Assembly: GCF_900107175.1 (NCBI RefSeq) | Contig: NZ_FNOZ01000038.1 | Location: 1-39,199 of the forward strand | Length of the DNA: 39,199 nt | Direction: 5' to 3' | Origin: Modestobacter sp. DSM 44400 | GTDB taxonomy: Bacteria > Actinomycetota > Actinomycetes > Mycobacteriales > Geodermatophilaceae | Shown: positions 1-16,278 of the stretch, one piece after another | Layout of the letters: each line of letters starts with the position of its first letter | Position numbering within the stretch: the first letter of the stretch is position 1 | The notes under the pieces: model-generated | Database searches by the model: none | What the model was told of the DNA's origin: nothing | The model's input: the letters and a program-made list of their open reading frames with translations, nothing else | Translations under genes and position numbers: made by a program

Positions 1-291
1 CAGCCGCTGCAGATCGGTGAGAAGCGTCGGGTCGGTCTCGGTCAACGGCCGGCGCCCGCCCCCGGGGCGACGCACCCGATCGGTCACCGGCGCGCCGCCG
101 GTCAGCTCCGCCATCCCAGCGGTCACGGTCTCCGGGTGCAACCCGCTGGCGCGGGCCACCCGGGCGGTGCCGCCCCGGCCCAGCGAACGTGCCTCGGCCC
201 CCGCCAGCAGCCGACGCTGCCGCTCGTTCAGGTGCGGAAACACGCTGGCGAACTTCTCGGCCAGTGCCTCATCGGACACACCGGTGGTCAC
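1..291 (-). CDS. ISAzo13-family transposase, N-terminal part (runs off window)
   Basis: Read leftwards from a GTG at 291, this frame gives a 97-residue start of a transposase and continues past the window edge. It shows the family-typical stretch ERQRRLLAGAEARSLGRGG, followed by an HTH-like segment (ARVARASGLHPETVTAGMAEL) and RVRRPGGGRRPLTETDP. In the ISAzo13 family this N-terminal region precedes a DDE catalytic domain, which would lie outside the window. The frame is open further upstream, to an ATG at 375, but that extension reads into the interrupted neighbouring gene, so GTG 291 is preferred. Transposition is the expected role; whether the element is intact cannot be seen. Confidence in the family is good and in the exact start moderate. 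Confidence 0.78.
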   Translation of the reverse strand, partial: MTTGVSDEALAEKFASVFPHLNERQRRLLAGAEARSLGRGGTARVARASGLHPETVTAGMAELTGGAPVTDRVRRPGGGRRPLTETDPTLLTDLQRL

Positions 292-345
292 CTCACCAAG
301 CTTGACCCCCGAAGCCCAATCCTGGAGTTGATCCCTGCCGGGCCC
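1..345 (-). mobile_element. End of an ISAzo13-like insertion sequence
   Basis: The transposase start lies within about 60-80 bases of a gene fragment that begins abruptly, so one IS end must fall between about 300 and 371. I could not define a terminal inverted repeat because the other end is outside the window. The right boundary given is approximate. Confidence 0.5.
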
Positions 346-364
346 TAAGGTCCGCGACCAGCAG

Positions 365-583
365 ATGGGGCGCATGGTGACCCTCGGCTCCTGGGCGTAC
401 TGCAAGGTGGACGCCGACGTGGCTCCGATCGAGGTCGGGGATCCCCTGACGACGAGTCCGACGCGGGGCCACGCGCAGAAGGCGACCGACCGGGCCCGTT
501 CCCGCGGGGCGGTCATCGGCAAGGCCATGGCGCCGCTGGCCTCCGGCCGGGGAGTCGTCCCCGTCCTGGTGGGGCTGCAGTGA
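365..583 (+). pseudogene. C-terminal remnant of a phage-tail/eCIS-associated protein, truncated by the IS
   Basis: The last ~70 residues of a protein remain: LGSWAYCKVDAD, then VGDPLTTSPTRGHAQKATD and RGAVIGKAMAPLASGRG, ending PVLVGLQ. As far as I recall, this beta-rich C-terminal module (typically CKVDA...GDLLTTS.TPGHAMKA...GAVIGKAL..L..G.G.VPVLV.LQ) closes large proteins found beside phage-tail-like and S74 fibre genes. The frame is open only from 332, just after an in-frame stop, and no plausible start or ribosome site precedes the ATG at 365, so the 5' part has been lost to the IS. Its stop overlaps the GTG of the next gene (GTGA), so it was once the upstream member of this operon. The exact function is unknown. 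Confidence 0.6.
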
Positions 584-852
584 GCGCGGCGGGGGACGCC
601 GACGTGCACGCGCGGATGTCGGCGCGGCTGGCCGAGCTGCACGAGGAGCTGCGGCGGGGCGAGGTGCAGCTGCGCGAGCTCGTGCAGCGGGAGACGGCCC
701 TGCGGGAGTCGATGCTGCGGATCAGCGGCGCCGCCCAGGTGCTCGCGGAGCTGCTCGAGGACGCGGCGGCGCCCGACACCGCCGGGCCCGGGAACGGGGC
801 GACGGCGGGGAGCGGGGCGGCCGACGTCCCCCGGGTCCTCACGGTCACCTAA
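580..852 (+). CDS. Small coiled-coil protein of the tail-like operon
   Basis: A 90-residue protein with GTG start overlapping the stop of the upstream remnant. Residues ~8-65 are a charged, Leu-rich helix (ARLAELHEELRRGEVQLRELV and onward to AQVLAELLEDA) with heptad spacing, which suggests a coiled coil. The last 25 residues are Gly/Ala-rich and probably disordered. No signal peptide, membrane segment or catalytic motif is visible and I do not recognise a named family. Its place between a tail-type module and the S74 fibre gene suggests a structural or assembly role, for example oligomerising the fibre base; this is inference from context only. The fibre gene starts 33 bases downstream. Confidence 0.6.
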   Translation: MSAAGDADVHARMSARLAELHEELRRGEVQLRELVQRETALRESMLRISGAAQVLAELLEDAAAPDTAGPGNGATAGSGAADVPRVLTVT

Positions 853-885: not shown

Positions 886-2571
886 ATGAGCACGGACCTG
901 GTGCGGACCCAGTACTGGAACCTCAACGGCGTCAACCGCACGCCGATCAGCGGCTCGACGGACAGAGCCGAGTCGCGGACCGACATGGAGCGGCACCTGC
1001 TGGCGGCGGACGCCGCGCGCAACACCGCGCTCTGCACGCCGGGTGTCGCCGCAGGTCTGCAGGTCTCCGGCACCGTCGGCGCCGCCGGTGTCACCGTGGC
1101 CCCGGGGACGGCGCTCGACGGCGCCGGACGCGTGGTCGTCCTCGCTGCCGGGGGGAGGGCCGTCGTCGACCCGCTGGCCGAGCCGGGCAGCGTGCAGGAC
1201 ATCCCTACCGTCCAGGTGACCGCGGCCGGGGTCGTGCTCGAGACCACGGGCCTGCAGGGCGGCGACCACCTGGTCACGGTGACCTGGCGGGAGACCGAGG
1301 AGAAGGACGCCGGCCTGCTGGTGCTGCGCCAGACGCCGTGGCTCCGCGTCGTGAAGCCGGCCACCTTCCTCGACGACGGCCTCCAGCTCCCGCTGGCCTC
1401 GGTGACGTTGACCGGCGACGGTGAGGTCGCCGGGCTGGTGGCGGGCGCCCGCCGGCTGGTGGGCAGCCGGGTGGGACGGCTCGAGCTAGGGGTACCGGTC
1501 ACGGCTGCCGGGGTCTCGGCCGGGCAGTCCCCGGCGGTCGAGCTCGTGCCGCAGGAGGACGGTGGCGCCGACCTGAGGGTCCTGCCTGCCACGGGCCCGC
1601 CGCGCCAGGTCCTCTCGGTGTCCGGGAGCTCCGGCGACGTCCACCTGGGGGCGGCACTGAGCGTGACCGGGGACGTCACCGCGCGGCGCGACCTGACGGT
1701 CGTCGGCGGCGCCCTGATCACCGGGCCGCTGACCGTCAGCGGGCCAGGGGCGCCCACGCTGTCCGTGGACGGCGCGGTCGACCTGTCCTCGTCGATGACC
1801 ACGGCGGGCGCGGCCGACTTCTCCTCGACGGTGACCGTCCACGGGGCGCTGACGGCGACGACCCAGGCGGTCTTCCAGGGTCCCGTCCACGCAGCGTCCG
1901 CGCTACGGGTGGACGGACCGTTCACGGCCGGCGGCGGTGCTCTCGACGCCCTCGCGGTGCACGGCAACGCAGTGGTCGGCGCGGGTGCGAACGGCTCGCT
2001 CCGGGTGCGGCACGTGGACGGCAAACAGGCCGGTGCGGACGGGTTCGACGGTCTCTTCCTCAACTGGGACAGCGGCACGACCGTCCACGTCGGCGGCGGG
2101 CAGCCGGCCGACCTGGAGGTGACGGGCAAGGCCACCGTCGCAGGGCCGCTCGGGGTGCGGACCACCGCCCCCGCGTTCGACCTGCACGTCAACGGCACCG
2201 CGTGCGCCGTGACGTTCTGCAACCCCTCCGATGCTCGGCTGAAGGCGAGGATCACCGAGCTCGACGACGTCGCCGGACGGCTGGCCCGCGTCCGGGCGGT
2301 GAGCTTCACCCTCCGGCATGAGGGCCGGGATGCCGGAGGTGCGCGTCGCGCCGGGGTGCTCGCCCAGGACGTGCAGGACGTCTTCCCCGAACTCGTCCTG
2401 CCGATGGGGGAGGACGGCCTCCTGGCGGTGGACTACGCCGGACTGGCCGGCGTCCTCGTAGGTGCGGTGAACGAGCTGCATGCCACCACCCAGGCCCTGG
2501 GTCGCCGCCTGGAGGAGCTGGTGTGCGCGCCGGGGCCGGACACCGGAGGTCAGGATGCTCACCAGCTCTGA
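886..2571 (+). CDS. Tail-fibre-like protein with C-terminal Peptidase_S74 (intramolecular chaperone) domain
   Basis: 561 residues. The ATG is preceded by a strong ribosome site (GGAGGAG, 877-883). The N-terminal ~200 residues form a beta-rich head (GVTVAPGTALDGAGRVVVL). Residues ~245-440 are short Gly/Val/Thr repeats such as GDVTARRDLTVVGGALITG, typical of trimeric beta-helical fibres. The end, from residue ~440, is a Peptidase_S74 domain: Ser448 in SDARLK with Lys453 five residues on matches the Ser-Lys self-cleaving dyad known from phage endosialidases. GVLAQDVQDVFPELV and a final helix (YAGLAGVLVGAVNELHATT) follow. In known members this domain trimerises the fibre and then cuts itself off. 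The probable role is a receptor-binding or decorating fibre of a tail-like particle. Its 3' end overlaps the start of the Thr-Cys repeat gene by 17 bases. Confidence 0.85.
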   Translation: MSTDLVRTQYWNLNGVNRTPISGSTDRAESRTDMERHLLAADAARNTALCTPGVAAGLQVSGTVGAAGVTVAPGTALDGAGRVVVLAAGGRAVVDPLAEPGSVQDIPTVQVTAAGVVLETTGLQGGDHLVTVTWRETEEKDAGLLVLRQTPWLRVVKPATFLDDGLQLPLASVTLTGDGEVAGLVAGARRLVGSRVGRLELGVPVTAAGVSAGQSPAVELVPQEDGGADLRVLPATGPPRQVLSVSGSSGDVHLGAALSVTGDVTARRDLTVVGGALITGPLTVSGPGAPTLSVDGAVDLSSSMTTAGAADFSSTVTVHGALTATTQAVFQGPVHAASALRVDGPFTAGGGALDALAVHGNAVVGAGANGSLRVRHVDGKQAGADGFDGLFLNWDSGTTVHVGGGQPADLEVTGKATVAGPLGVRTTAPAFDLHVNGTACAVTFCNPSDARLKARITELDDVAGRLARVRAVSFTLRHEGRDAGGARRAGVLAQDVQDVFPELVLPMGEDGLLAVDYAGLAGVLVGAVNELHATTQALGRRLEELVCAPGPDTGGQDAHQL

Positions 2572-2962
2572 CGGTGCCGTGAGCGGCGCCGTCCGGCTCG
2601 AGGTGCTCGGTGACGCGGGGCCGGCCGACGACTTCGACCTGGACCTGCGATGGGGTGAGCTGACGTCCGGCGACGGGGTCGAGCTGTACCTGCCGACCGG
2701 GCGCGACGTCCCCGGGGAGACGTGCGACACGCACAACCCGACCTGCCCGGACACCTGCCATGCCACGTGCCCGGCGACCTGCGTCAACACCTGCCCCGAC
2801 ACGTGCCGGAACACCTGCGCAAACACCTGCCGGAACACCTGCGGGAACACCTGCCGCGTCACCTGCGCGAACACCTGCGCGCACACCTGTCGTGACGACT
2901 TCTGCCAGACCAACGCGCAGACCCACTGCTTCACCTGCCGCTCCGGCTGCCGCGAGCCATGA
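2555..2962 (+). CDS. Putative class I lanthipeptide precursor with tandem Thr-Cys tetrads
   Basis: 135 residues from ATG 2555, which lies inside the end of the S74 gene. A longer frame reaches back to 2480 but would overlap it more and adds Arg-rich sequence without leader features. Residues 1-56 have no Cys and contain DFDLDLRW (26-33), which matches the F-(N/D)-L-D box recognised by LanB in class I leaders (nisin: DFNLDL) and the actinobacterial FxLD lanthipeptides. Residues 57-132 hold 18 Cys. From Cys64 to Cys112 a Cys occurs at every fourth position, always preceded by Thr (13 x-x-T-C units: PDTC, HATC, VNTC, RNTC, ANTC and so on), followed by DDFC, THC, FTC and SGC. The gene is coupled to LanC (ATGA overlap) and then LanB, so it is the obvious substrate. 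At ~80 residues the core would be unusually long for a lantibiotic. A disulfide-rich structural protein is the alternative. Confidence 0.8.
   Translation: MLTSSDGAVSGAVRLEVLGDAGPADDFDLDLRWGELTSGDGVELYLPTGRDVPGETCDTHNPTCPDTCHATCPATCVNTCPDTCRNTCANTCRNTCGNTCRVTCANTCAHTCRDDFCQTNAQTHCFTCRSGCREP
2741..2890 (+). repeat. 12-bp tandem coding repeat for x-x-Thr-Cys units
   Basis: An ACCTGC or ACGTGC-type Thr-Cys codon pair recurs every 12 bases, 13 times without a break. The other two codons of each unit vary (Asn or Asp before Thr most often; Arg, Ala, Pro, Gly, Val or His first). The strict period with varied flanks suggests growth by tandem duplication under selection for Thr and Cys. Confidence 0.9.
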
Positions 2963-4314
2963 CCGCGACCACCGTGCCGGTTCGCGACGTGGGCGGCCCG
3001 CCCCACCCGGCGACCCGGGTCGCCGTCGAGATCGCTCGGCGCTGTGCGGACCCGAAGACGCTGGGCCGCGCGGTCGTCGCGCATGCCCGGCAGTCGCGGT
3101 ACGCCGCGCAGCTCCCGTGGCGCCCGGCGTCCCTGGCCCAGGGTCACGCCGGCACGGCGGTGCTCTGTGCCGAGCTGGACCGCAGGGAGCCAGGGGCGGG
3201 CTGGGACCGCCTCGGGCACCTGCACCTGCAGACCGCGGTGGGAGCGGCCGGACCGCACGACGTCTCGCTGTTCTCCGGGCTCGCCGGCGTCGGGTCAGCC
3301 GCGCTCCTCCTGGCCGCGGGTCGGCCGCGCTACGGCCGGCTTCTCGGGCAGGTGGACGCGGCCCTGGAGGAGCCGGTGCGGTCGGCGGCGGAACGGTTGA
3401 CCACGGTGCGGGGGTGCGCGGCCGGCGACCTCGACCTCGTGTCCGGGCTGACCGGTGTCGGCGCGTACCTGCTCACCCGACGGCTGTCACCGGGTGACGC
3501 AGCCGGCCGCTCCGGATCGGCGGCCGGCAGCCTCGAGGTCGTCCTCTCCGTCCTGGCGCGGCTGCTGTCGGCCGCGGACGACCCCCGCCCGTGGCACACG
3601 CCCGCCTCCCTCGCTGCCGGCAGCCTGCGGAAGGTCCACCCCTCGGGCCACCACAACTGCGGCCTGGCGCACGGCGTACCCGGACCGCTGGGGCTGCTGG
3701 CGCTGGCCATGACCGCGGGCCTGCCGGTGCCGGATGGAGAGCAGGCGCTGCAGAGCACGGCGGGCTGGCTGGTCGAGCACCGGCTCGACACCTCGGACGG
3801 CCCCGACTGGCCGGACGCCGTCCCGCTGGCGCCGGTCCTCGGCCCCGTTCCCGACCCGTGCTCGGCGGGCCGCGCCGCGTGGTGCTACGGCGCGCCCGGA
3901 GTGGCGCGGAGCCTGTGGCTGGCCGGCGCCGCGGCCGGTGAGCGGCGGTGGCAGCTGCTGGCCGGCCGGGCCGTCCGGGCGATCGCAGCACGTCCCCCCG
4001 ACCGCTGGCTGCTGTCCACGCCGACCTTCTGCCACGGCTCGGCCGGGCTGCTGCAGGTCCTCCACCGGTTCGCCGAGGACCTGCCGGATCCCGACGTGGC
4101 CGCCACGACGCGTTCGATGTCCGCCGAGCTGGCCGCGCGCTTCGACGCGGCCACCGTGCTGGGGGTCAGGAGCGTCGAGCCGGACGGCGTCCTCGTGGAC
4201 CATCCGGGCCTGCTCGACGGCGCCCCGGGGGTCGCGCTGGCGTTGCTCGGACCACGGCAGGACGACGTCGGCGCGGCCGGGCCGTCCTGGGACAGGGTGT
4301 TCCTGCTGTCATGA
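2959..4314 (+). CDS. LanC-like lanthionine cyclase
   Basis: 451 residues; ATG overlaps the precursor stop (ATGA) and its own stop overlaps the LanB start the same way. The Gly-rich repeats of the LanC alpha-toroid are visible in order: SLFSGLAGVG, LVSGLTGVGAYLL, NCGLAHGVPGPL, AWCYGAPGVARSL, TFCHGSAGLL and LLDGAPGVALALL. By comparison with NisC, the zinc ligands are Cys309 (WCYG) and Cys358-His359 (CHG). His238 (AHG) and Arg305, four residues before Cys309, correspond to the catalytic His212 and Arg280 of NisC. The enzyme is therefore probably active: it would add Cys thiols to dehydrated Ser/Thr to form (methyl)lanthionine rings. There is no fused kinase or lyase domain, so this is a stand-alone class I cyclase acting in the cytosol with the adjacent LanB. 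Confidence 0.92.
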   Translation: MTATTVPVRDVGGPPHPATRVAVEIARRCADPKTLGRAVVAHARQSRYAAQLPWRPASLAQGHAGTAVLCAELDRREPGAGWDRLGHLHLQTAVGAAGPHDVSLFSGLAGVGSAALLLAAGRPRYGRLLGQVDAALEEPVRSAAERLTTVRGCAAGDLDLVSGLTGVGAYLLTRRLSPGDAAGRSGSAAGSLEVVLSVLARLLSAADDPRPWHTPASLAAGSLRKVHPSGHHNCGLAHGVPGPLGLLALAMTAGLPVPDGEQALQSTAGWLVEHRLDTSDGPDWPDAVPLAPVLGPVPDPCSAGRAAWCYGAPGVARSLWLAGAAAGERRWQLLAGRAVRAIAARPPDRWLLSTPTFCHGSAGLLQVLHRFAEDLPDPDVAATTRSMSAELAARFDAATVLGVRSVEPDGVLVDHPGLLDGAPGVALALLGPRQDDVGAAGPSWDRVFLLS

Positions 4315-7300
4315 CCCGCAGCCCGGCGACCACTCCGCTGTACCGCCCGCTGGACGGTGTGGTGGTCCGCGCGCCGCTGCTGCCCGCGTCGGTCTTCGCG
4401 GCGTCCGGCGCGGAACTGGACCGGTGGGTCGCCGACCCGGAGTTCCGCTTCGCGGTCACGGTGGCATCGGCGGACCTGACCGCGGCCGTCGACCGCCCGA
4501 TGGGTGCCGCACCCGCCGCGCGGGCGGCGCTGCAGCGTTACCTCATCCGGGCGGCGACCCGGCCGACGCCGTTCGGTGGCTTCGCCGCCGTCGGCCTGGC
4601 CCGCTGGGCCGACTGCACCGACCTGGCCGTGGGTGCCGGTCGCCGGCGGACCCGGACCCGCCCGGACCTCGGCTGGCTGACCGGGCTCGCCCTGCAGCTG
4701 TCGGCCGATCCCGCGTTGCGCCCCCGGCTGCGGCTGTACGCCAACCGCTGCGTGTTCGAGCACGAGGGTCGATACCACCTCACCGATCCCGGTACCGGTG
4801 GCGTGCGGAACGGTCCCGACGTCTCGGTCCGGGCGACGCCGGTCGTCCGGCGCGTCCTGGCGCTGGCCCGCGCCCCGATCGGACGGGAGGAGCTGCGGCG
4901 TGCGGTCGCGACCTCCCACCCGGGGGCAGGGGACGGCAGGGCCGACGAGGTGCTGGACCTGCTGGCCGAGCGCCAGTTCCTGCTGCCGGAGGTGCTGCCC
5001 ACCCTGACCGGGGACCCGCTGGCCTGGGTCGGCGCGGCGGTCGAACGCGCGCTCGGCACCCCGCCGTCCCCGGCCGCGGCACCTCCCGACCCGGCCGGCG
5101 CGTGGTGCACCCGCCTGCGGGCGGTCGCCGATGAATGTCATCGGGTGGACACCGCCGAGCCAGCCGAGGCAGCGGCTGCCCTCACCGGGTTGTCCCGGCG
5201 GCTGGCGACCGTCGCGGACGACGGCCCACGCCCACCGGACCAGGAACCGGACCCCGAGGCCGGCGCGCACCTGCAGGTCGACTCGGCGCTCACCTTCGAC
5301 GGGTCGGGGCTGGCCCGGTCCGTCGCCGTGGACGCCGCCACCGCCGTGGACCTGCTGTTCCGGCTGCACCCCGATCCGCTGGCGGACCCGCTGGCCGGCT
5401 ACCGGTCGGCGTTCCACCAGCGGTACGGCGAGCGCCGGGTCGGCCTGCTGGAGCTGCTCGACCCCCGGTTCGGCCTCGGGCCGCCGAGCGGGTACGTGGG
5501 CGCGGCCGGGGACCACGGCCGTTCCGGGGAGCGGACGGCTGCCCTGCAGGAGCTCGTCGCGGAGTCGATCCGGACCGGGTGCGCCGGGGTCGAGCTCGAC
5601 GACGCGCTCGTCGATCGGTTGTCCATGTGGACCCCGGCTCCCGCGGCCCTGCCGCCGTCCGTGGAGCTCAGCGCCTTCCTGGCGGCGAGCAGCCGTCGGG
5701 CTCTCGACCTCGGTCGCTATCTTCTGGTCGTCGGGCCCAATCTCGGCGCCCAGGCGGCCGGGCGCGGCCTGGGGCGGTTCGCCGACCTGCTCGGCCCGTG
5801 CGCCACGGGGCTCCTGACCGCCGCCGCGGACGCCGAGCAGGCGGTGACCGGGGCGGCGGGACCGACCGCCCCGGTCGTGGCGGAGCTGGTGTACCGGCCG
5901 CTGCGGGCCCGGTCGGCGAACGTGGCCGTGCGCCCCGTGGTGCGGTGCCACGAGCTCCCGGTCGGCGTCGCGCCGACCCTCCCGCCCGACCGGGTGGTCG
6001 GGGTGGACGAGGTGTCGGTCGCCGTCCAGGACGGGCGATTCCGGCTGTGGTGGGACCGCGAGGACCGGCCGCTGGTCCTCGCGGAGGGCCACATGCTCAA
6101 CCCCGCCGGAGCGCCACCCCTGTGCCGGTCCATGCTCGAGCTGTCCGGCGACGGGACGACCTGGCTGTCCCCGTTCGACTGGGGACCACTGGCCGGGATG
6201 CCGTTCCTGCCCCGCGTCCGCCGCGGACGCGTGGTGCTCTCCCCGGCCCAGTGGCGGCTCGGGCCCCCGACCGCCGGGGCTGCCGGGACGACGTCATCGG
6301 AGCCGTCCGCGTGGATCGAGCACTGGCGGGAGCGGTGGCACGTACCGCGGCTGGTCCATCTCACCAGCGCCGACAACCGGCTGCTGCTCGACCTCGACGA
6401 CCCCGGGCACCGGGCGCACCTGGTCGCCGCGGTCCGCGCTGCCGGTCGCCGTCCGGTGTACCTGCAGGAGGGGCTGCCCGCCCCCGAGGACGCCTGGCTC
6501 CCCGGCCCCCGGGGCCGGCACGTCGTCGAGCTGGTGGTGCCGCTGGTCCGCACAGCGGCGCGCCCGGGCCCCCCGTCACCTCCGGTGCCCTCAGCGATCC
6601 GGCACCCGGCCGGCGCGCGGCGTCGCCCGCCCGGGTCGGAGTGGCTCTACCTGGTCCTGGAGGGACCGCGCCGGACGGAGGACGCCCTGCTGACCGGGCC
6701 CCTCGGCGCTCTCGCGCAGGGCCTCGTCGACCGGGGGGACGCCGACGGCTGGTTCTTCGTCCGCTACGCAGATCCCGCGCCCCAGCTGCGACTGCGCCTG
6801 CACGGCCAGGGGGAGGCGCTCGTCGACCGAGCACTGCCGGAGCTGACGCGGTGGGCCGTGACGGCCATCGGCTCCGGTGTGCGCACGCGGCTGACGGTGG
6901 AGCCGTACGACCGCGAGCTCGAGAGGTACGGCGGGCCGGAGACCACGGCGATCTGCGAGCGTCTCGCGTGCGCCGACAGCACCGCCGTCCGGGGGCTGCT
7001 CACGGTGCTCGCCGGCCCGGCGCCCGCAGCGCCCGACCCGTTGGAACTCGCGTTGGTGTCCTTCGCCGACCTGCTGGGCTGTCTGACCGGCGCGAACGCC
7101 GCCGCGGCAACCCGCTGGGCCAGAGAGCTGGCGGCCGGCACGAGCGCGGCCGGACCGCTGTTCCGGCGCGGGAAGGACCGGCTGCGCGCCCTGCTCGGGG
7201 CCGTCGACGACGGCGCCTGGGCGGTGGCGGGAGAGCCGTGGGACCGCATCGGTGCCTCGGTGGGCACGGTCCTCACCCGGCGACGGGAGTCGGCGCGGCC

Positions 7301-7520
7301 GCTCGTCACGGCGCTGGCGGGGTGCGCAGCCGGCGGCAGCGGAACGCGGTCCGTCGAGCAGATGGCCGGTGACGTCCTGCACCTGCACGCCAACCGGCTC
7401 GGGCTGGACCGATCGCAGGAGCAGTGCGTCCTGGGACTGCTCGACCGCACGCTGCGCTCGCTGACCGCCTTCCCGCGGCCGGCCACCGCGGGCACGGAGC
7501 AGCCGGGAGGTCCGCCATGA
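4311..7520 (+). CDS. LanB-type lantibiotic dehydratase (tRNA-Glu dependent class), full length
   Basis: 1069 residues, similar in size to NisB. The start ATG 4311 forms an ATGA overlap with LanC; an in-frame extension to 3948 would run through the LanC gene and is rejected. The N-terminal glutamylation domain shows RYLIRAATRPTPFGGFAAV (residues ~75-93), the family signature. From ~776 the C-terminal elimination domain (SpaB_C, thiopeptide-type) begins with EWLYLVLEG and continues with FFVRYADPAPQLRLRL, YDRELERYGG and LHLHANRLGL. The last contains a His where NisB has His961. The usual HLRLR is QLRLR here. In characterised members, Ser/Thr are glutamylated from Glu-tRNA and then eliminated to Dha/Dhb. 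The expected substrate is the Thr-rich repeat protein at 2555-2962. Both activities appear to be in one chain, unlike split thiopeptide LanBs. Confidence 0.92.
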   Translation: MTRSPATTPLYRPLDGVVVRAPLLPASVFAASGAELDRWVADPEFRFAVTVASADLTAAVDRPMGAAPAARAALQRYLIRAATRPTPFGGFAAVGLARWADCTDLAVGAGRRRTRTRPDLGWLTGLALQLSADPALRPRLRLYANRCVFEHEGRYHLTDPGTGGVRNGPDVSVRATPVVRRVLALARAPIGREELRRAVATSHPGAGDGRADEVLDLLAERQFLLPEVLPTLTGDPLAWVGAAVERALGTPPSPAAAPPDPAGAWCTRLRAVADECHRVDTAEPAEAAAALTGLSRRLATVADDGPRPPDQEPDPEAGAHLQVDSALTFDGSGLARSVAVDAATAVDLLFRLHPDPLADPLAGYRSAFHQRYGERRVGLLELLDPRFGLGPPSGYVGAAGDHGRSGERTAALQELVAESIRTGCAGVELDDALVDRLSMWTPAPAALPPSVELSAFLAASSRRALDLGRYLLVVGPNLGAQAAGRGLGRFADLLGPCATGLLTAAADAEQAVTGAAGPTAPVVAELVYRPLRARSANVAVRPVVRCHELPVGVAPTLPPDRVVGVDEVSVAVQDGRFRLWWDREDRPLVLAEGHMLNPAGAPPLCRSMLELSGDGTTWLSPFDWGPLAGMPFLPRVRRGRVVLSPAQWRLGPPTAGAAGTTSSEPSAWIEHWRERWHVPRLVHLTSADNRLLLDLDDPGHRAHLVAAVRAAGRRPVYLQEGLPAPEDAWLPGPRGRHVVELVVPLVRTAARPGPPSPPVPSAIRHPAGARRRPPGSEWLYLVLEGPRRTEDALLTGPLGALAQGLVDRGDADGWFFVRYADPAPQLRLRLHGQGEALVDRALPELTRWAVTAIGSGVRTRLTVEPYDRELERYGGPETTAICERLACADSTAVRGLLTVLAGPAPAAPDPLELALVSFADLLGCLTGANAAAATRWARELAAGTSAAGPLFRRGKDRLRALLGAVDDGAWAVAGEPWDRIGASVGTVLTRRRESARPLVTALAGCAAGGSGTRSVEQMAGDVLHLHANRLGLDRSQEQCVLGLLDRTLRSLTAFPRPATAGTEQPGGPP

Positions 7521-10500
7521 CCGCCCACCAGCGGGAGCGGGTGCCGTCGGTGTCCGCCGCCGCACCGACCCGGGGACGTCCTGGCCGCGAGCCGGCTCGT
7601 CCCGGCCCGAACCTGCCGCCGGTGCTGGACCTGCAGGCCCGGATCGGCAACCGGGCGACCACCCGGCTCGTGCCCGTGCTGTCGGCCGCACCGATGCTGC
7701 CGGGTGCGGCGCTCGTGCAGCGGTGCGGAGGCCGGGAACCCTGCGGCTGTCACGACGAGGAGGAGAACGCGACGGCGCTGCAGCCCCGGCTGCGGATCGG
7801 ACCGGCTGGCGACCGGTACGAGCAGGAGGCCGAGCGGATGTCGGCCGCGGTGCTGGGGGCGCCGCCCACCAGCGATGCCCGACCGCGGCCCGGACCCGCG
7901 CTGGTCGATCAGCTGCAGCGGTCGCTGGACCCGGCGGACGAGACCGGACCGGGGTTCGATGCCGACCTGGAGCCAGCGGTCGACGTGGCGTCAGAGGTCG
8001 ACACACCGCCCGACGTCGACCGCGTCGAGGACGTCGAGGACGTCGGGGAGGTCGAGGACGAGGTCGGCGGGGATGCTGGCGGGGACGACGGGGACGACGC
8101 TGGTGGCGACGCGGAGCTCCGCTCCGCCGGCGCGGGGACGCCGGCCGGTCCCGCTGTCGAGCGGCCCGGCCCGGTAGAACTGCGGCGGCACCCGGCCGCA
8201 CCGGCGCCGCAGAGCTCCGGGGCGGACGTGCAGGGTTACGTGGCCGGACTCGGGCGCGGCGGCCACGCACTGCCGGCCGGCACCCGCGGGGAGCTCGAGC
8301 CACTGTTCCGGTACGACTTGTCCGACGTGCGGGTGCACGACGACCCGGCGGCCGCGCGCGCGGCACAGGCGGTCGGAGCGCTGGCCTTCACGGTCGGCCG
8401 GCACGTCGTCTTCGCCGCCGGTCAGTACGCCCCCGCCACCCGCACCGGCCGGGCCCTGCTCGCCCACGAACTGACCCACGTCGTCCAGCAGTCCGGGTCG
8501 CGTGGGGCACCGCCCGGGATCCAGCGAGCCCGCTGGGGCCCGTGCCCGCCGGGGCAGTCGCTCCCGGCGCACCACCCCTTCCGGTACACGGCTGCCGAGC
8601 TGACCATGCTCGCCTACTACCGCGCGGTCGGCGGCAGTTCGTGCTGGTCGAGCAACGTCGAGAAGTTCTGGGAGATGTCGTGCACCGGGCCGGCCGGACG
8701 GCGCATCCGGCAGTTCGCCCGGAACTTCCGCAGCGGCAAGGGCAGCCAGAACCGCCGGATCGGCGCGGATCCGGGGAAGGTTGCCGCTCCCGGGAGGGGC
8801 GAAGGCGCCCTGGACGCCATCGCCGGCGGCGAGGCAGCGATGACCGCGGTCGCGGCCTTCGTCCAGCCGGACATCATCGACTTCCAGCACCGCGAGATCT
8901 ACGACGTCACCACGGCCAAGCAGGCCGGGGCCAAGGTGGCGAAGGTCCATGGCTACGCCGTGCTGGCCTCGCGGATCACGGGTGAGCACTGGACGCCGGG
9001 TACCCGGCTGCAGAGCAGGCCGATGCCACCGCCGTACCGCTTCATGCCCGGCGAGACCATCTGCTTCGGGCCGACCGACCTGGCCGCCCGACCGGGCGTG
9101 CTGGCCTACGAGGTGATCGGTTCCGGGAAGAAGAAGTCGAAGAAGAAGGCGAGGGGGAAGAAGCAAAGGGCGAAGCCGACCAAGAAGGGCCCGAAGAAGA
9201 CCGGGCCGAAGAAGACGGCGCCGAAGAAGACCGCCTCGAAGAAGACCGCCTCGAAGAAGACCGCCTCGAAGAAGCCGGATGCGAAGAAGCCCGATGCGCA
9301 GACCCCGCCGAAGACGCTGCCCGTCGGCGGAGCGAACATCGGTTTCGGCATCAGCATCGGGAGCACCGGGGGAGGGTCGGCGAACGCCGGAGTCGGGATC
9401 TCGATCTTGTCCCGCGGTGCCAGCTACGGCACCGTGAGCGCGGGCGTCGTCTACGACTCGACCGGCTACGCCGTCGGCACGGTGGGCGTCGGGGCCGGGG
9501 CCGGCAACACCGGGGCGGCGGCCCTGAGCGCGGGGGCCGGGGCCGCCAAGGACACGACGTCGGCCGGTGTGGCGACCGCCGGTGCGGGGACGAGTTCGGG
9601 GAGCACCAGCGTCGCGGCCGCGAGCGCCGGCGCCGGGACCAGCAAGGACGACACCACAGCCGGCGTCGCGGTGGCCGGGAAGGGGTCGAGCGAGGGCAAC
9701 CTCGGTGCGGCGGCCGGGACCAGCGGTTCGGGGCGGAGCGAGGGCAACGTGACCGCCGTGGCCGGCGGCTCCGGGGGCACTGGCGGCTCCGGTCAGATCG
9801 GGGCGTCGTCCGCTGCGGGGACCGCCGCCGGGGAGACGTCCGCCGGGGGGACCGCCGCTGCGGGGACGTCCGCGCCGGGGGCGTCCGCCGAGGGGACCAC
9901 CGCTGAGGGGACCCGGCGTCCGGACGGCGGGTCCGGGGCAGGTCAGGGCGCAGGTGCTGCGGGTGCGCACGGTCTGGGGATCCCGGGGTCGTCGCCGGCG
10001 GACGCCGATCGGGCCGTCGACGAGGCCGCCGCGATGGAGCGGTTGCTGCGGAGCGCTTCGCCGGCTCAGCGGGCCTTCTTCACCGCCCTGATCCGCAAGA
10101 CCCAGGGCGGCAGTTTCGTCGTCCCCGGATCCCAGTGGGTGCAGCTGATGCTGACCGCGACCACGGACGTGTCCCAGGAGGACCTCGCCTACCTCATCAC
10201 CCTGGACTGGCACCCCGGCCAGGTCACCGCCGAGCAGTTGCGGCAGCAGGTCCGGCAGGCCCTCGCGCGACGGACCTCCGGGGCCCCACCCGGGCTGCCC
10301 GCCGATGCGGGGTCCGGTGACCGCGTCGCGGCCCACGTGAAGCCGCCGACCGCACCGGTGGCGGGCAAGGCCGCACCGACGCCTGAGGCAGGGAGAACCG
10401 GGACTCGAGACGCGAAGGACGAGCCGGGGGAGCCGGGGGAGTCGCAGCAGGAGCGGATCGAGCGCCTTGCCCACCGCGCGCGTGACCACGGACCGTCCGC

Positions 10501-10756
10501 CGGTCAGGACGTGCTCCTCTACTCGAAGTCCGCGAAGCCGGGTCAGCAGATCGACGCCACGGTCTACCTGCATCTCCAGGTCCCCGGCACCGGGGCCATC
10601 CTCTGGTGGACGGCAGACGTGCACGGCACGCTCACGGGCCGTGGCGACGCGAGCGGGTTCCAGGTGGCCAGTGGCACCGAGCTGGTCAGCGCCGGAGGCG
10701 ACGTCCTCCGCGTGGGATGGTGGGGCCAGCTCAACCCGCTCCGGTTCCGACCGTGA
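7517..10756 (+). CDS. DUF4157 (eCIS core domain) putative cargo protein with Lys-rich tail and 16-residue repeats
   Basis: 1079 residues; ATG 7517 overlaps the LanB stop (ATGA) and is preferred over a longer frame starting inside LanB. The N-terminus has a Cys cluster (RCGGREPCGCHD) common in this class and an Asp/Glu-rich linker (~145-200). Residues ~240-325 are the DUF4157 domain, with VRVHDDPAAARAAQAVGALA and LAHELTHVVQQ (HExxH at 317-321). Residues ~340-530 are a unique domain with PDIID (451-455) and REIYDVTT, resembling a PD-(D/E)XK nuclease core but lacking the usual Lys. Residues ~537-600 are histone-H1-like (repeated SKKTA). Five 16-residue Gly/Ala repeats start at ~672. The C-terminal ~250 residues are unrecognised. 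DUF4157 proteins are typically linked to contractile injection systems as cargo; the toxic function here is inference. Confidence 0.8.
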   Translation: MTAHQRERVPSVSAAAPTRGRPGREPARPGPNLPPVLDLQARIGNRATTRLVPVLSAAPMLPGAALVQRCGGREPCGCHDEEENATALQPRLRIGPAGDRYEQEAERMSAAVLGAPPTSDARPRPGPALVDQLQRSLDPADETGPGFDADLEPAVDVASEVDTPPDVDRVEDVEDVGEVEDEVGGDAGGDDGDDAGGDAELRSAGAGTPAGPAVERPGPVELRRHPAAPAPQSSGADVQGYVAGLGRGGHALPAGTRGELEPLFRYDLSDVRVHDDPAAARAAQAVGALAFTVGRHVVFAAGQYAPATRTGRALLAHELTHVVQQSGSRGAPPGIQRARWGPCPPGQSLPAHHPFRYTAAELTMLAYYRAVGGSSCWSSNVEKFWEMSCTGPAGRRIRQFARNFRSGKGSQNRRIGADPGKVAAPGRGEGALDAIAGGEAAMTAVAAFVQPDIIDFQHREIYDVTTAKQAGAKVAKVHGYAVLASRITGEHWTPGTRLQSRPMPPPYRFMPGETICFGPTDLAARPGVLAYEVIGSGKKKSKKKARGKKQRAKPTKKGPKKTGPKKTAPKKTASKKTASKKTASKKPDAKKPDAQTPPKTLPVGGANIGFGISIGSTGGGSANAGVGISILSRGASYGTVSAGVVYDSTGYAVGTVGVGAGAGNTGAAALSAGAGAAKDTTSAGVATAGAGTSSGSTSVAAASAGAGTSKDDTTAGVAVAGKGSSEGNLGAAAGTSGSGRSEGNVTAVAGGSGGTGGSGQIGASSAAGTAAGETSAGGTAAAGTSAPGASAEGTTAEGTRRPDGGSGAGQGAGAAGAHGLGIPGSSPADADRAVDEAAAMERLLRSASPAQRAFFTALIRKTQGGSFVVPGSQWVQLMLTATTDVSQEDLAYLITLDWHPGQVTAEQLRQQVRQALARRTSGAPPGLPADAGSGDRVAAHVKPPTAPVAGKAAPTPEAGRTGTRDAKDEPGEPGESQQERIERLAHRARDHGPSAGQDVLLYSKSAKPGQQIDATVYLHLQVPGTGAILWWTADVHGTLTGRGDASGFQVASGTELVSAGGDVLRVGWWGQLNPLRFRP
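9124..9300 (+). repeat. Lys-rich KKTAS-type coding repeat
   Basis: AAGAAG pairs recur every 15 bases, coding for PKKTG, PKKTA, SKKTA (repeated) and then PDAKK units. The composition resembles the C-terminal tails of histone H1 and HU-like proteins, which bind DNA without fixed structure. It lies between the nuclease-like domain and the Gly-rich repeats of the same protein. Confidence 0.8.
9530..9769 (+). repeat. Five 48-bp coding repeats (16-residue Gly/Ala/Ser/Thr units)
   Basis: Consecutive units read AGAGAAKDTTSAGVAT, AGAGTSSGSTSVAAAS, AGAGTSKDDTTAGVAV, AGKGSSEGNLGAAAGT and SGSGRSEGNVTAVAGG. Alternating small and polar residues at a fixed period suggest a beta-solenoid or a flexible stalk. 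A weaker unit precedes the array. Confidence 0.75.
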
Positions 10757-10823: not shown

Positions 10824-12635
10824 ATGAACGCCGTGGCACTGCTCGTCCGGGACGGGGAGCGACGGGCCGGCCCGCTCCGGCCGGCACCCGAGAACGCCCA
10901 GCGTCGCCAGCCGCGGCCGCGGGCACTGGACCTGCAGCAGACGGTCGGGAACCAGGCCGTCCGGGGGCTGGTCCAGCCCACGAGAGGTGCCGCGGCCGGC
11001 CAGGGGGCGGCGGGGGGTGCGCCGCTCGACGGGGCGACACGGGCGATGATGGAGGCGAGCTTCAACCAGGACCTCAGCGGTGTGCGGGTCCGACAGGACG
11101 TCTCCGCAGCTGCCACCGCCCGCCAGCTAGGCGCGCGCGCCTTCACCATCGGTGAACAGGTGCACCTGGGGCAGGACGTGCCCCCACTGGAGACGACGGC
11201 CGGCCGTTCGACGCTGGCGCATGAACTCGCCCACGTCCTGCAGCAGCGCCGCGGGGGACTCGAGCCGGCCGCCGACCCCGGCAGCGCCGCCGAGCGCGAG
11301 GCCGAAGCGGCCGGAGCCTCGGTGCTCGAGGGCGGTGGTCCGGGGCCCATCGCGCAGGGCACGGCGGTGGGGGTGGCACGGCAGCCCACCGACCCGCGGC
11401 ACGTGCGCGGGTACGCCGGCGAGCAGGGCATGGGCTTCGAGCTCTACCCACAGAAGGAAGGATGGATCTTCTTCGAGGGGCCGAGCGGCTCGGCCGGCCA
11501 CCAGACGACCAACCCGGGCTTCGACGGGGTCGTCTACAACACCCGGACCCGTGAGCTGCACCTCGTGGACAACAAGTCCTACAAGGCCACCGGGAACGTG
11601 CGCTCGGCAACGGCGATCGACCCGGCCAAGAACCTCGCCCAGAACGTGGACGACCTCATCCTGCGAGTGGAATCGGCCCGCGACGTGGAGGGCCGAATTC
11701 TGGTGCTCGGCCTGCTGCGGCGGACCAGGGCGGCCCTGGCAGCAGGCGGCCCTGTTCCAGGGGAGGTCCACCTGGTGGTCACCAGCGTCGGTGGCCGGAC
11801 CTCGGACGTGTCGAAGGCCCTCTGGGGCCGGGGCGTCGAGCACCGGCCGCCGAAGCCCTCGACACCGTCCCCGGCATCCCCGCCGAGCCCCACCACGGGT
11901 ACGCCACCGACCACGACCACATCAGCCGCGGGCGGAGCTGCCCCGGGAGCGGAAACCGCCGCGCACTCCAGCCCGACCACGTCCGGGGCGCACGTCCAGG
12001 CGCCCGAGCCGCACTCGCCGCAGGTCCCGCACTCGCCGCAGGTCCCGCACTCGCCGCAGGTCCCGCACTCGCCGCACGTCCCGCACTCGCCGCAGGTCCC
12101 GCACTCGCCGCACGTCCCGCACTCGCCGCACGTGCCGCGATCCCCGAAGATCCGCGGCGGACTGCTCATCGGCGTGGTGATCGCCGGGGTGACCTACTTC
12201 GTCACGGACGACGCCTACGCCGCCGGGCAGACGCTAAACCCGACGGCCAGTACGACGGACGCCGTGCGGAGCGGGGGCTCCGGCCTGGACGTGACCGTGG
12301 GGATTGCGAGGGACCTGGTCAGCCTCACCCCGCCCGGCGCGATTGCGTTCCTGGTCTGGGACCTGGGCCAGCCACGCGGAGAGTTCCGCTACGACCAGGA
12401 ACTCTACGACCGGGCGGTGCGGGAGGGCCGCAACCCGTTCTGTGCTCAGTGCCACGGGCCCGGCGGTGCACTCGATCCGAACAGCAGGTGGAACCGACGG
12501 TCCGCGTTCGACCTGTCGACCCAGCTCGGGGGAGTCCGCCAGGTGCGGTGGACCACCCTGTCCCCGGACGAGCAGGCAGAGGTCAGCCGGTTCCTCGGCG
12601 CTCCGCCGTCCGTGGCCGCCGGCAGCAAGCCATGA
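10824..12635 (+). CDS. Second DUF4157 putative cargo protein with nuclease-like domain, proline-repeat linker, membrane segment and CxxCH motif
   Basis: 603 residues; ATG 10824 follows a good ribosome site (GGGGAGG, about 7 bases upstream). An upstream in-frame extension overlaps the previous gene and is rejected. DUF4157 spans ~70-140 (LAHELAHVLQQ, HExxH at 133-137). Residues ~190-335 hold NPGFDGVVYN and LHLVDNKSYKATG; Asp234, Asp249 and Lys251 fit a PD-(D/E)XK-like D...(D/E)xK pattern, followed by ATAIDPAKNLAQNVDDLI. Residues ~396-437 are PHSPQV hexapeptides. A hydrophobic helix lies at ~447-465 (LLIGVVIAGVTYFV). The last ~65 residues include CAQCHGPGG (540-548), a cytochrome-c-type haem motif, and end with a cytochrome-like helix (LSPDEQAEVSRFL). 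I infer a DNA-targeting cargo protein of the injection system; the CxxCH part is unexplained. Confidence 0.78.
   Translation: MNAVALLVRDGERRAGPLRPAPENAQRRQPRPRALDLQQTVGNQAVRGLVQPTRGAAAGQGAAGGAPLDGATRAMMEASFNQDLSGVRVRQDVSAAATARQLGARAFTIGEQVHLGQDVPPLETTAGRSTLAHELAHVLQQRRGGLEPAADPGSAAEREAEAAGASVLEGGGPGPIAQGTAVGVARQPTDPRHVRGYAGEQGMGFELYPQKEGWIFFEGPSGSAGHQTTNPGFDGVVYNTRTRELHLVDNKSYKATGNVRSATAIDPAKNLAQNVDDLILRVESARDVEGRILVLGLLRRTRAALAAGGPVPGEVHLVVTSVGGRTSDVSKALWGRGVEHRPPKPSTPSPASPPSPTTGTPPTTTTSAAGGAAPGAETAAHSSPTTSGAHVQAPEPHSPQVPHSPQVPHSPQVPHSPHVPHSPQVPHSPHVPHSPHVPRSPKIRGGLLIGVVIAGVTYFVTDDAYAAGQTLNPTASTTDAVRSGGSGLDVTVGIARDLVSLTPPGAIAFLVWDLGQPRGEFRYDQELYDRAVREGRNPFCAQCHGPGGALDPNSRWNRRSAFDLSTQLGGVRQVRWTTLSPDEQAEVSRFLGAPPSVAAGSKP
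12009..12134 (+). repeat. Seven 18-bp tandem repeats coding PHSPQV/PHSPHV
   Basis: Seven hexapeptide units in a row (Q or H at position 5), then one degenerate unit, PRSPKI. The near-identical codons indicate recent tandem expansion. The Pro at every third position suggests an extended, stiff linker before the membrane segment. Confidence 0.9.
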
Positions 12636-13882: not shown

Positions 13883-15487
13883 GTGTCCCGACGGTGGCTG
13901 TCCCTCGTCGCGGTGGTTGCGGTGGCTGCCGTGGGGATCGCCGCCGCCCTCGACGAGGCCGCCGGTCCGGCGGAGTGGATGTTCGGCAGCGTTCTCTGCC
14001 TGTCCGCCCTCGGCGGGCTGCACCTCGCGATCGGCGCCGCTCGGAGGGCCCTTGCGGAGCGGGGGCGCGATCGGCATCTGGCCGCAATGTCCCCTGATCA
14101 CACCGTCCGTCAGGCGGTGCTGGCCGAGCGCGCCCGGCTGGCAGCCGACGTGCAGATGGTTATCCGCTCCGCCGTCCTCGGCATGGCCGATTCCGCCCGG
14201 CTGGCGGCGTGCACGTGGGAGCAGGACCCGGCGCCGGCCCTCGCGCCGGTGCAGGCCCAGGGGCAGACCGCCGTCCAGGAGTTGCGCAGGCTGCTCGGTC
14301 TGCTCCGTTCGGCCGCCGCAGAACCGGCACCGCCACCGGCGCCGCCCGCGCCTGCGGCGCACGGTCATCGCAGCGACCTGGCGCTGGCGCTCGGGACCGC
14401 GCTCCTGGCCGGGGTCGAGCAGTACGTGGCGGTGCGCCTGCCGGATGTCGGGCTGACCGCTGGCGACGAGTCCCTGCTGCTCGGCTGCGCCGCGGCCGCG
14501 GCGGTCGGGCTACGCCGTCGAGCTCCCGGCTGGGGAGCGCTGCTCTGCGGACTGCTGCCCCTCCTGTCCGTGGTGACGCAGCCGGTCCTCGTCGGTGTCG
14601 GATTGCTGGTCACCGCGAGCACCTTGATCTGGGCCGTTGTGCGCCGCGGCGGCCTTCTCGACGTCGGTGGCGGGGTGGTGCTCGTGGTCGGTGCCGCTGT
14701 CGCGACGGTCGCCGTGCTCCCGGAGAACCTGCCGGTCCTGCTCGTGGTCGTGGGCGCTGCCGCGGCGGGGGGTTCGGTGGCGCGAGCAGGAGATGAGTGG
14801 GCCCGGTCGTCCCGTCGCCTGGCCGACGATCGCGAGGCCTGGCTGCGGGCGGGCGCGGAGCGGGCGGTCCGGATTGAGCGGCTCGCGGTCGCGCGGGAGC
14901 TCCACGACGTCGTCTCGCACGCCGTCGGTCTCATGACGGTGCAGGCGGGCGCGGCGGCCGCCCAGCTCCCGTGCAATCGTCAGCGTGCCCGTGTCGCCCT
15001 CGACCGCGTCCTCGCCACCGCCGCCGACACGGTGGGGGAGCTCAGCCGGCTGCTCATTGCGGTCGAGGGCAGCCCGCTCGGCGGCGGCACGGTCCCCTCG
15101 GACCGCTACGGGCAGGCCCTGCGGGCGCTGGTCGACCGCATGGGTAGTGCGGGTCTGGACGTGCACCTGGACGCAGACGAGGTGCCGGCCGGGGACGCCG
15201 GCGCGGCAGTGCACCGCGTCGTGCAGGAGTCGCTGACCAACGCCCTGCGGCACAGCCCCGGCGCGCACGTCGTGGTGCGCGTCGACACCCGACCGGAAGT
15301 CGTCATCGTCGACATCGAAGACGACGGGCCAGGGCCCGGCCCGCAGGCGCCCTCCGGCTACGGCCTGGTCGGCATCGCCGAGCGAGTGCACCAGCTCGGC
15401 GGCGAGCTCAGCACCGGAACGCACGCCGGCGGATCCGGGTTCGCCGTCCACGTGCGCCTGCCGCTGACCGCTGGACAGCCGTCGTGA
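13883..15487 (+). CDS. NarL/DesK-like sensor histidine kinase with an additional degenerate HisKA_3 module
   Basis: 534 residues from GTG 13883. One membrane helix lies at the N-terminus (LSLVAVVAVAAVGIAAAL) and several more at ~175-285, so it is an integral membrane sensor. The catalytic core is canonical: ELHDVVSHAVGLMTVQAG with phospho-acceptor His341, then EDDGPGPGPQ and GYGLVGIAERV of the HATPase domain. Residues ~80-150 repeat the helical hairpin of a HisKA_3 domain (ERARLAADVQMVIRSAV...AVQELRRLLGLLRS), but the His-Asp pair is replaced by Gln91-Met92, so this copy cannot be phosphorylated. The stop overlaps the regulator start (GTGA). The signal sensed is unknown; proximity to the injection-system operon permits, but does not show, regulation of it. 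Confidence 0.85.
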   Translation: MSRRWLSLVAVVAVAAVGIAAALDEAAGPAEWMFGSVLCLSALGGLHLAIGAARRALAERGRDRHLAAMSPDHTVRQAVLAERARLAADVQMVIRSAVLGMADSARLAACTWEQDPAPALAPVQAQGQTAVQELRRLLGLLRSAAAEPAPPPAPPAPAAHGHRSDLALALGTALLAGVEQYVAVRLPDVGLTAGDESLLLGCAAAAAVGLRRRAPGWGALLCGLLPLLSVVTQPVLVGVGLLVTASTLIWAVVRRGGLLDVGGGVVLVVGAAVATVAVLPENLPVLLVVVGAAAAGGSVARAGDEWARSSRRLADDREAWLRAGAERAVRIERLAVARELHDVVSHAVGLMTVQAGAAAAQLPCNRQRARVALDRVLATAADTVGELSRLLIAVEGSPLGGGTVPSDRYGQALRALVDRMGSAGLDVHLDADEVPAGDAGAAVHRVVQESLTNALRHSPGAHVVVRVDTRPEVVIVDIEDDGPGPGPQAPSGYGLVGIAERVHQLGGELSTGTHAGGSGFAVHVRLPLTAGQPS

Positions 15488-16254: not shown

Positions 16255-16278
16255 CCAGCAGAAACCGTGCCGAGACTG

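Follow-up and report, generated by a model that had tools for sequence, protein, structure and literature searches.

Class I lanthipeptide genes that recur in contractile injection system operons of actinobacteria, with a possible stapled payload

Lanthipeptides are generally known as small compounds that cells secrete, and payloads of contractile injection systems (eCISs) as proteins. A stretch of Modestobacter sp. DSM 44400 DNA raises the question of why peptide-modifying enzymes of the antibiotic type are encoded among genes for a tail-like particle. The window, meaning the whole stretch analysed, measures 39,199 nucleotides (contig NZ_FNOZ01000038.1). The locus is read here as a class I lanthipeptide module that recurs in eCIS operons; tentatively, its predicted stapled product may be exported as payload of the particle. 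The probable broader reading is that a ribosomally made repeat peptide with thioether staples is carried by a contractile injection system, and that in several actinobacterial families enzymes of an antibiotic-type pathway have been co-opted to arm or build the particle. The features are listed below; C53 denotes another contig of the same genome, and G967 a genome which is very likely that of Actinoplanes sp. NBC_00393.

1..349, minus strand: ISAzo13-type transposase, N-terminal part, at the contig end (open frame; position and orientation)
350..583, plus strand: fibre-type gene, C-terminal half, the N-terminal part of which ends C53 (homology to a G967 protein)
580..852, plus strand: small coiled-coil-like protein (coiled coil by eye; 50% identical G967 counterpart)
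886..2571, plus strand: tail-fibre-like protein with a C-terminal Peptidase_S74 chaperone domain (PF13884, E 1e-11)
2555..2962, plus strand: lanthipeptide precursor with FDLDL-box leader, (xxTC)n core and THCFTCRSGC tail (translation, family alignment)
2633..2647, plus strand: FDLDL leader box, precursor residues 27-31 (translation)
2741..2889, plus strand: 12-bp tandem repeat coding for xxTC units (Tandem Repeats Finder: period 12, 12.4 copies, 71% matches)
2959..4314, plus strand: LanC, lanthionine cyclase (PF05147, E 2.3e-39)
4311..7520, plus strand: LanB, full-length lanthipeptide dehydratase (PF04738 and PF14028)
7517..10756, plus strand: LanB-coupled DUF4157/eCIS_core protein, HELTH motif present (PF13699, E 1.5e-31)
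10824..12635, plus strand: second DUF4157/eCIS_core protein (PF13699, E 7e-26 for the longer ORF; genome search)

The surroundings had been described in an earlier note as injection-system-like, and extension upstream had been proposed in search of sheath and tube genes. Both genes are present on C53, within an eCIS operon at the end of that contig (AAA ATPase, sheath, tube, hub, gp25, baseplate J, Tail_P2_I, fibre). The system is a genuine eCIS, its core genes apparently broken off from the window by a transposon, and the alternative of a neighbourhood merely resembling an injection system is ruled out by this operon. C53 terminates in an ISAzo13 transposase fragment (C-terminal part, PF07592), in an orientation matching the transposase part of the window, which has no model match of its own and was assigned by position and orientation. 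A single 329-aa G967 protein is matched by both fibre fragments: by that of the window with 47% identity (E 3e-17), and by that of C53 only weakly (E 0.08), in an overlapping segment just upstream. The reading frame is kept across the two. The C53 operon appears to continue into the window, a transposon copy splitting one fibre gene between them. Joined in this way, C53 and the window would give one operon holding genes for the sheath, tube, hub, gp25, baseplate J, ATPase and DUF4157 protein, a gene order supported by the chromosome of G967, where it is unbroken; expression in the strain of the window, where the operon is split by the insertion sequence, is uncertain. The S74 fibre has an N-terminal RTQYWN domain in common with the C53 fibre (44%). 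The small protein at 580..852 has no Pfam match, and its G967 counterpart is encoded between the fibre gene and the S74 fibre gene. PADLOC gave nothing useful. With its baseplate and Tail_P2_I genes, fibres, S74 and DUF4157 proteins, the operon resembles those of other actinobacterial eCISs, and differs from them in having a peptide-modifying pathway aboard.

The precursor, LanC and LanB described in the earlier note, fused by ATGA overlaps and placed between an S74 fibre gene and a DUF4157 gene, are confirmed by translation and by domain matches; PF13884 lies upstream and two PF13699 genes downstream. ATGA overlaps join precursor to LanC, LanC to LanB, and LanB to the eCIS_core gene. The precursor, with GGAGG just 5' of its ATG, measures 135 aa and combines an FxLD leader with a core of Ser/Thr plus Cys, as class I lanthipeptides require. 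Eighteen Cys fall within the 82-residue core, 15 of them preceded by Thr, and the Thr-Cys pairs mostly recur every 4 residues (Thr at 56, 63, 67, 71 ... 111, 127). When the core was shuffled 10,000 times such pairs averaged 3.9, with a maximum of 10, against 15 in the real sequence. The precursor family includes 92 members; the FD[LIV]D[LIV] box is found in 87, and Thr directly precedes 1143 of 1599 Cys. In the subgroup of the window the alignment shows fixed ends and a variable repeat number. The precursor matches no Pfam model, and no NCBIfam model above its cut-off; PF27846 is listed in the protein database for some family members, but gave no match in the local Pfam copy. AlphaFold modelling of the precursor is unconfident (mean pLDDT 48), and neutral on a fixed fold. 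Targets of radical SAM enzymes with Cys-Xaa-Xaa-Xaa repeats (TIGR04114, TIGR04117) are likewise short peptides for modification with Cys every four residues; here, in contrast, LanB and LanC adjoin the precursor, rather than a radical SAM enzyme. Membership of these families was rejected, the 9 peptides scanned falling below cut-off (best scores 18.9 vs 50 and 17.6 vs 20 bits).

LanC is encoded as a separate protein, related to the solved structures 8byk (8e-37) and nisC 2g02 (4e-13). Residues C309, C358 and H359, which correspond to the zinc-ligand positions of NisC, are present, in line with the intact zinc residues of the earlier note, and are kept in all 4 aligned eCIS-linked LanCs (CYG and CHG motifs). 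LanB, the sole PF04738 match in its genome, is full-length, with predicted glutamylation and elimination domains: it covers positions 1-649 of 649 of PF04738 (Lant_dehydr_N, 3e-146) and 1-254 of 255 of PF14028 (Lant_dehydr_C, 7e-45). The nearest solved relative is the lantibiotic dehydratase 5ehk (1.6e-81), followed by 9g04 and NisB 4wd9 (4e-24). RPTPFG is found in 4/4 eCIS-linked LanBs, and YDRELERYGG and HLHxNR are present too, G967 showing one small change and G822 two; the roles of these motifs are presumably those that they have in NisB. The HExxH motif of the LanB-coupled DUF4157 protein (residue 317) is only a candidate for the leader protease (LanP). Two-domain LanB, LanC and FxLD-type leader are features of NisB/NisC-type clusters, from which the locus differs in the xxTC-repeat core of about 80 residues, in the eCIS setting, and in having no ABC exporter gene nearby. 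No ABC transporter was found within 10 kb of LanC at any of the four eCIS-linked loci with one C39-ABC query; since transporters are absent also from 23 of 31 other loci (present in 8), their lack does not exclude class I membership, and was dropped as evidence.

The module adjoins eCIS genes in 4 directly read genomes, namely that of the window, Geodermatophilus saharensis (G056), G967 and G822, in line with the expectation of the earlier note that the linkage would be conserved, and recurs elsewhere by shared contigs. G967, G822 and G965 seem to belong to the Micromonosporaceae. In G967 the order S74 fibre, repeat peptide, LanC, LanB, DUF4157 is unbroken and the same as in the window. In G. 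saharensis, the only genome returned by a scan of genome contigs, the module lies beside the eCIS on the opposite strand, not adjoining the S74 gene, and two precursors are found. The core sequence of the module varies and, as in this genome, can be doubled. G822 has a distant LanBC pair, placed upstream of the sheath rather than in the 3' part, and the FDIDL precursor lacks the x-x-T-C repeat; the repeat protein, about the constant presence of which the earlier note had asked, therefore does not accompany every eCIS-linked LanC-LanB pair. The 818-aa gene in front of this precursor, the only G822 gene scanned for S74, gave no match, and baseplate J of G822 is so divergent that baseplate-J searches miss it. 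Sister eCIS operons in G093 and G965 share the core gene set, in a comparison limited to matches >60 bits, and lack the module. LanC patterns were matched five times in viral contigs, none of which was confirmed.

Flanks of mostly about 10 kb, in some cases up to 20 kb, were read at 35 LanC loci; a separate list of 35 places in the LanC survey includes 17 outside the stretches read. eCIS genes are absent from 31 of the 35 directly read loci, which hold more distant LanCs, in tblastn searches with C53 and window proteins at E 1e-5, or 1e-4 for part, thresholds that highly divergent eCISs could escape. Three of the LanC loci (G1139, G099, G767) are near contig ends, which makes their negatives weak. 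Several eCIS-free loci have FxLD precursors. The actinobacterial loci G1162, G1289 and G1137 resemble the window in the FDLD-type leader, the Cys-rich core and the tandem of LanC then LanB, but have irregular cores and no eCIS genes in the flanks covered, which extend to at most 20 kb on each side. The 31 loci without eCIS and the two sister operons without module mark the module as an accessory of eCISs, as cargo genes are.

Contig sizes extend the survey. Among 49 LanC contigs of at least 10 kb, 12 match exactly in size one of 69 baseplate-J contigs of at least 10 kb (120 control shifts: mean 0.04, maximum 1). This indicates that 12 further LanCs share a contig with eCIS baseplate genes, which on large contigs or chromosomes is not proof of closeness. 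Among the matches listed, 37 of the LanC contigs have no size match to baseplate-J contigs, and 54 of the baseplate-J contigs none to LanC or precursor contigs, so that the majority of related eCISs show no module; the protein lists are the best 120 of 631 and the best 120 of 452, and the shared contigs a lower bound. In the LanC tree a clade of 26 rows round the window (SH-aLRT 100) includes 13 linked rows, 2 read directly and 11 by matching contig size, no row read as unlinked, and 13 that may go either way. The linkage label changes 3 times on the tree, against 13.4 in shuffles, and none of 500 shuffles was as low. L052 and L056, LanCs on long branches read as unlinked, fall inside a wider 47-row clade. 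The tree was built by a quick method, its unlinked rows have long branches, and its placement of G822 is unsure; 8 rows, possibly gapped copies in the source, were aligned anew. Linkage is thus read directly in two families, and shared contigs indicate further genera.

Going by family membership, LanB would glutamylate Thr residues and eliminate to dehydrobutyrine with the FDLDL leader bound, and addition of the Cys thiols by LanC would produce a methyllanthionine ladder. Gene position suggests that the stapled peptide may be loaded in the cytoplasm together with its DUF4157-type neighbours, a proposal under which no dedicated exporter would be needed, and that after contraction it could be delivered to cells picked by the coupled S74 fibre. 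According to Geller et al. (PMC8213781), toxin cargo is placed in the 3' part of eCIS operons with DUF4157 genes. In the window and in G967 the module takes this very position, as an accessory beside DUF4157 genes; G822 is the exception. This position, the absence of the module from G093 and G965, and the variable or doubled core count for a payload.

The earlier note had viewed the product as a lanthionine-bearing structural part of the particle. The class I module in an eCIS operon stands; the structural role stays hypothetical, and G093 and G965, in which the same core gene set occurs without the module, point more to an accessory payload or a specialised fibre partner. It is possible, if less likely than a payload, that the stapled peptide serves the S74 fibre as a structural partner and forms a rod or tip on the particle, variable in length and reinforced by thioethers. 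In both the window and G967 the precursor and S74 fibre genes overlap, S74 is found in a fibre of 3/3 Lan-bearing operons of the window lineage and in 0/3 fibre genes scanned from 2 Lan-free operons, and the THCFTCRSGC end of the window subgroup, the copy-variable repeat and the fibre-gene overlap fit a structural partner equally well. A rod is harder to reconcile with G. saharensis, in which the module sits on the other strand away from the S74 gene, with the repeat-free precursor and S74-free 818-aa gene of G822, and with the 25 of 92 family members in which the longest xxTC run is only 2. The payload is favoured over the structural part.

An ordinary lanthipeptide, e.g. an antibiotic or a signal, co-regulated with the eCIS but released alone and physically independent of the particle, would be compatible with the 31 of 35 directly read actinobacterial loci without eCIS at the threshold used, several with FxLD precursors, and genes in one operon need not act together. 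It is nonetheless improbable, given linkage in two families, the shared contigs in further genera, the clustering on the LanC tree and the gene order common to the window genome and G967; that 10 kb on either side hold no ABC exporter, though frequent at unlinked loci too, is of the same sign. Least probable is a peptide free of thioether bridges, with free thiols, bound metal or disulfides, the enzymes acting on few residues or elsewhere. Eighteen Cys in 82 residues would suit such a peptide, but the leader box and the Thr before Cys are common in the family, and LanB and LanC, with the checked motifs present, lie beside the precursor at all four eCIS-linked loci. As judged from the genes, a Cys-rich peptide with two predicted stapling enzymes beside an injection machine is likely to be stapled and either carried or displayed by it.

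This pairing was not found described, and the statement of the earlier note that no such eCIS was known agrees with the titles and abstract openings retrieved, in which lanthipeptides are joined neither with contractile injection systems nor with phage tails. Abstract openings on FxLD, or on Geodermatophilaceae and lanthipeptides, hold no such join. Nothing was found on Cys-rich repeat modification targets. The eCIS papers word-searched contain no lanti- or lanthi- term, and those searched for LanC, RiPP and dehydratase lack these as well; Walker et al. (PMC7268733) contains no phage or contractile term on word search. If conserved, the join would either open a new way of delivering a natural product of peptide type or represent a new kind of chemically cross-linked particle part. 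The intact G967 operon makes the payload and structural versions directly testable by native-particle mass spectrometry. A conserved join would also give a setting to the precursor family, about 90 Thr-Cys repeat peptides mostly without a name. The window precursor is itself a long Thr-Cys repeat, and the module is found in this actinobacterium and in at least three others.

The repeat peptide gene (precursor), LanC and LanB form a module set among genes of an extracellular contractile injection system (eCIS). They lie on contig C46 (39,199 bp), all of which makes up the window, in a 5.0-Mb actinobacterial draft genome of 182 contigs from the same family as Geodermatophilus. The genes read as follows.

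Gene order at the left end of the window
1-349, end of an insertion sequence (ISAzo13-type)
350-583, plus strand, fibre fragment
580-852, plus strand, small coiled-coil-like protein
886-2571, plus strand, S74 fibre
2555-2962, plus strand, repeat peptide (precursor)
2959-4314, plus strand, LanC
4311-7520, plus strand, LanB
7517-10756, plus strand, first eCIS_core (DUF4157) gene
10824-12635, plus strand, second eCIS_core (DUF4157) gene

The repeat peptide, LanC, LanB and first eCIS_core genes are coupled by ATGA overlaps. Genome-wide, LanB and sheath have one match each and eCIS_core three, every one on C46 or on a second contig, C53. The latter carries genuine eCIS core genes (sheath, tube, hub, baseplate), which bears out the injection-system reading of the window neighbours made in an earlier note; both the sheath and the tube genes that were to be sought upstream of window base 1 reside there. 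In the right part of C53, genes for an AAA ATPase, sheath (the sole one detected in the genome), gp19 tube, eCIS_core, phage base V hub, gp25, baseplate J, Tail_P2_I and one fibre follow in one direction; the fibre gene leads into an ISAzo13 transposase with which C53 ends. A search of the genome gave five ISAzo13-type transposase ends, so the transposon alone cannot tell which contig follows C53. The fibre end of C53 and window 350-583 are in frame with each other, and a single 329-aa protein from another genome aligns to both in neighbouring segments, with a clear match to window 350-583 (E 3e-17) and a weak one to the C53 end (E 0.08). In G967, very likely Actinoplanes sp. NBC_00393, the counterpart of the 580-852 protein has a fibre gene on one side and the S74 fibre gene on the other, and the order from fibre to module is unbroken. 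On these grounds we infer that the window continues the C53 operon across the insertion sequence. One ISAzo13 copy (window 1-349 plus the C53 right end) appears to split a fibre gene of the operon, which may thus be expressed in two parts in this strain.

LanC-LanB pairs linked to eCIS genes, as envisaged in the earlier note, were read directly in three further genomes. In the G967 chromosome (11,433,213 bp) the order, on the minus strand, is ATPase, sheath, tube, eCIS_core, hub, gp25, baseplate J, Tail_P2_I, fibre, S74 fibre, repeat peptide, LanC, LanB, eCIS_core, followed by another fibre and eCIS_core gene; LanC and LanB are 59% and 54% identical to those of the window. In Geodermatophilus saharensis DSM 45423 (G056, NZ_FZOH01000002.1) the module (precursor, LanC, second precursor, LanB) faces an eCIS operon that has an S74 fibre. 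The two Thr-Cys repeat precursors flanking its LanC (L009:14787-15248 and 16659-17156) are different. Precursors P0134 and P0138 lie on contigs of equal size (23,687 bp). In G822, of the same family as G967, distant LanC and LanB (38% each) come after an FDIDL precursor, directly upstream of sheath, tube, hub, gp25 and baseplate genes. This precursor has no xxTC repeats, and the notion that an xxTC protein always accompanies eCIS-linked LanC-LanB does not hold.

The C53 baseplate J, used as query, identified 3/112 genomes in the window's family (the window's own, G056, G093) and 3/300 in the family of G155 (G967, G965, G834). The module is present in the window's genome, G056 and G967. The eCIS core and fibres of the module-bearing operons recur in G093 and G965, and in neither was a LanB/LanC match >60 bits, a repeat peptide or a Cys-bearing FxLD precursor found within 40 kb; nor was any found within 20 kb in G834. 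The module is therefore an accessory of the eCIS operon. An S74 domain was detected in all 3 module-bearing operons; a scan of three fibre genes from G093 and G965 detected none.

LanC relatives were found in 4/112 genomes of the window's family (E 1e-10), 27/397 of its order (1e-30), 6/394 of its class (1e-60), 7/300 of the family of G155 (1e-80) and 6/345 of the order of G622 (1e-85). Flanks were read at 35 LanC loci: 4 are eCIS-linked, and in the other 31 eCIS genes were not found at the search threshold. The 31 are more distant from the window LanC in tblastn (best 186 bits, versus 195 and 327 for G056 and G967). Linkage was assayed more widely by exact size identity of LanC contigs of ≥10 kb and baseplate-J contigs. 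Among the matches listed, at least 12 of 49 LanC contigs (window's own included) equal in size one of 69 baseplate-J contigs, versus a mean of 0.04 and a maximum of 1 in 120 shifted controls; 37 LanC contigs equal no listed baseplate-J contig, and 54 baseplate-J contigs no listed LanC or precursor contig. The 12 include Kribbella sp. NBC_01510, Nonomuraea rubra and Kineosporia babensis, on large contigs or a chromosome, where the genes may lie far apart. At least 8 of the linked contigs, pairing baseplate J with LanC or a precursor, measure <50 kb (35063, 47406, 44321, 23687, 17614, 14744, 11681, 10849). In a LanC tree of 83 rows, 16 linked, the linked label changes 3 times, versus 13.4 in shuffles (0/500 as low). 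Around the window LanC, a 26-row clade holds 13 linked, 0 unlinked and 13 unassigned rows, a wider 47-row clade 15 linked, 2 unlinked (on long branches) and 30 unassigned.

A search for the peptide family yielded 92 relatives. The leader box FD[LIV]D[LIV] is found in 87, a T[HR]C[FP][TS] tail in 48, and Thr precedes 1143 of the 1599 Cys residues. The longest xxTC run varies from 2 to 15 units, and is only 2 in 25 members. Most of 19 aligned rows of the window's subgroup feature the pattern DEFDLDLxWGEL - YLPTxREIPGETCDTHxATC - (xxTC)n - THCFTCRSGC. Among the matches listed, at least 17 of 33 precursor contigs of ≥10 kb (window's included) double as LanC contigs. In a few members a long N-terminal domain precedes or replaces the short leader; in P0206, P0210, P0211, P0214 and P0215 it spans roughly 110 residues and is GFLGxSDREGYxRLYFT-like, and a small ORF in front of the G828 LanC has a similar stretch.

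By family knowledge, LanB would convert Thr to dehydrobutyrine, while methyllanthionine rings would arise from the addition of Cys thiols by LanC. Adjacent Thr and Cys are not expected to bridge each other, so rings would have to reach a neighbouring xxTC unit, plausibly forming a ladder or chain of small rings. The predicted stapled peptide is tentatively viewed, from its gene position, as an eCIS payload. The gene coupled to LanB encodes a DUF4157 protein; payloads lie at DUF4157 genes and at the 3' end of the operon (PMC8213781, PMC11297309); and a Streptomyces DUF4157 protein was reported to bind a cargo protein, which it is proposed to connect with the baseplate (PMC13277306). That the peptide is instead a fibre or other structural partner of the particle is less probable: the best argument for it is that the peptide gene overlaps the S74 fibre gene, but the module-free sister operons and the variable cores argue most strongly against it. 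A free lanthipeptide is unlikely, and an unstapled Cys protein more improbable still; a payload is preferred to all three. The lanthipeptide half and the eCIS half are each already known; their join was not found in the available text of the published literature, word searches within eCIS papers included.

The first DUF4157 protein (7517-10756) has a lysine-rich stretch (~9130-9300) and a glycine/alanine-rich region beyond the HExxH domain, the second (10824-12635) a PHSPQVPHSPHVP-type repeat in the linker (~12000-12140). A HisKA_3 sensor kinase and a GerE response regulator (window 13883-16254) lie immediately downstream of the eCIS locus; such pairs are possible eCIS regulators according to Geller et al. 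(PMC8213781). A tRNA-Leu (gag) gene is found at 16278-16363, on the minus strand.
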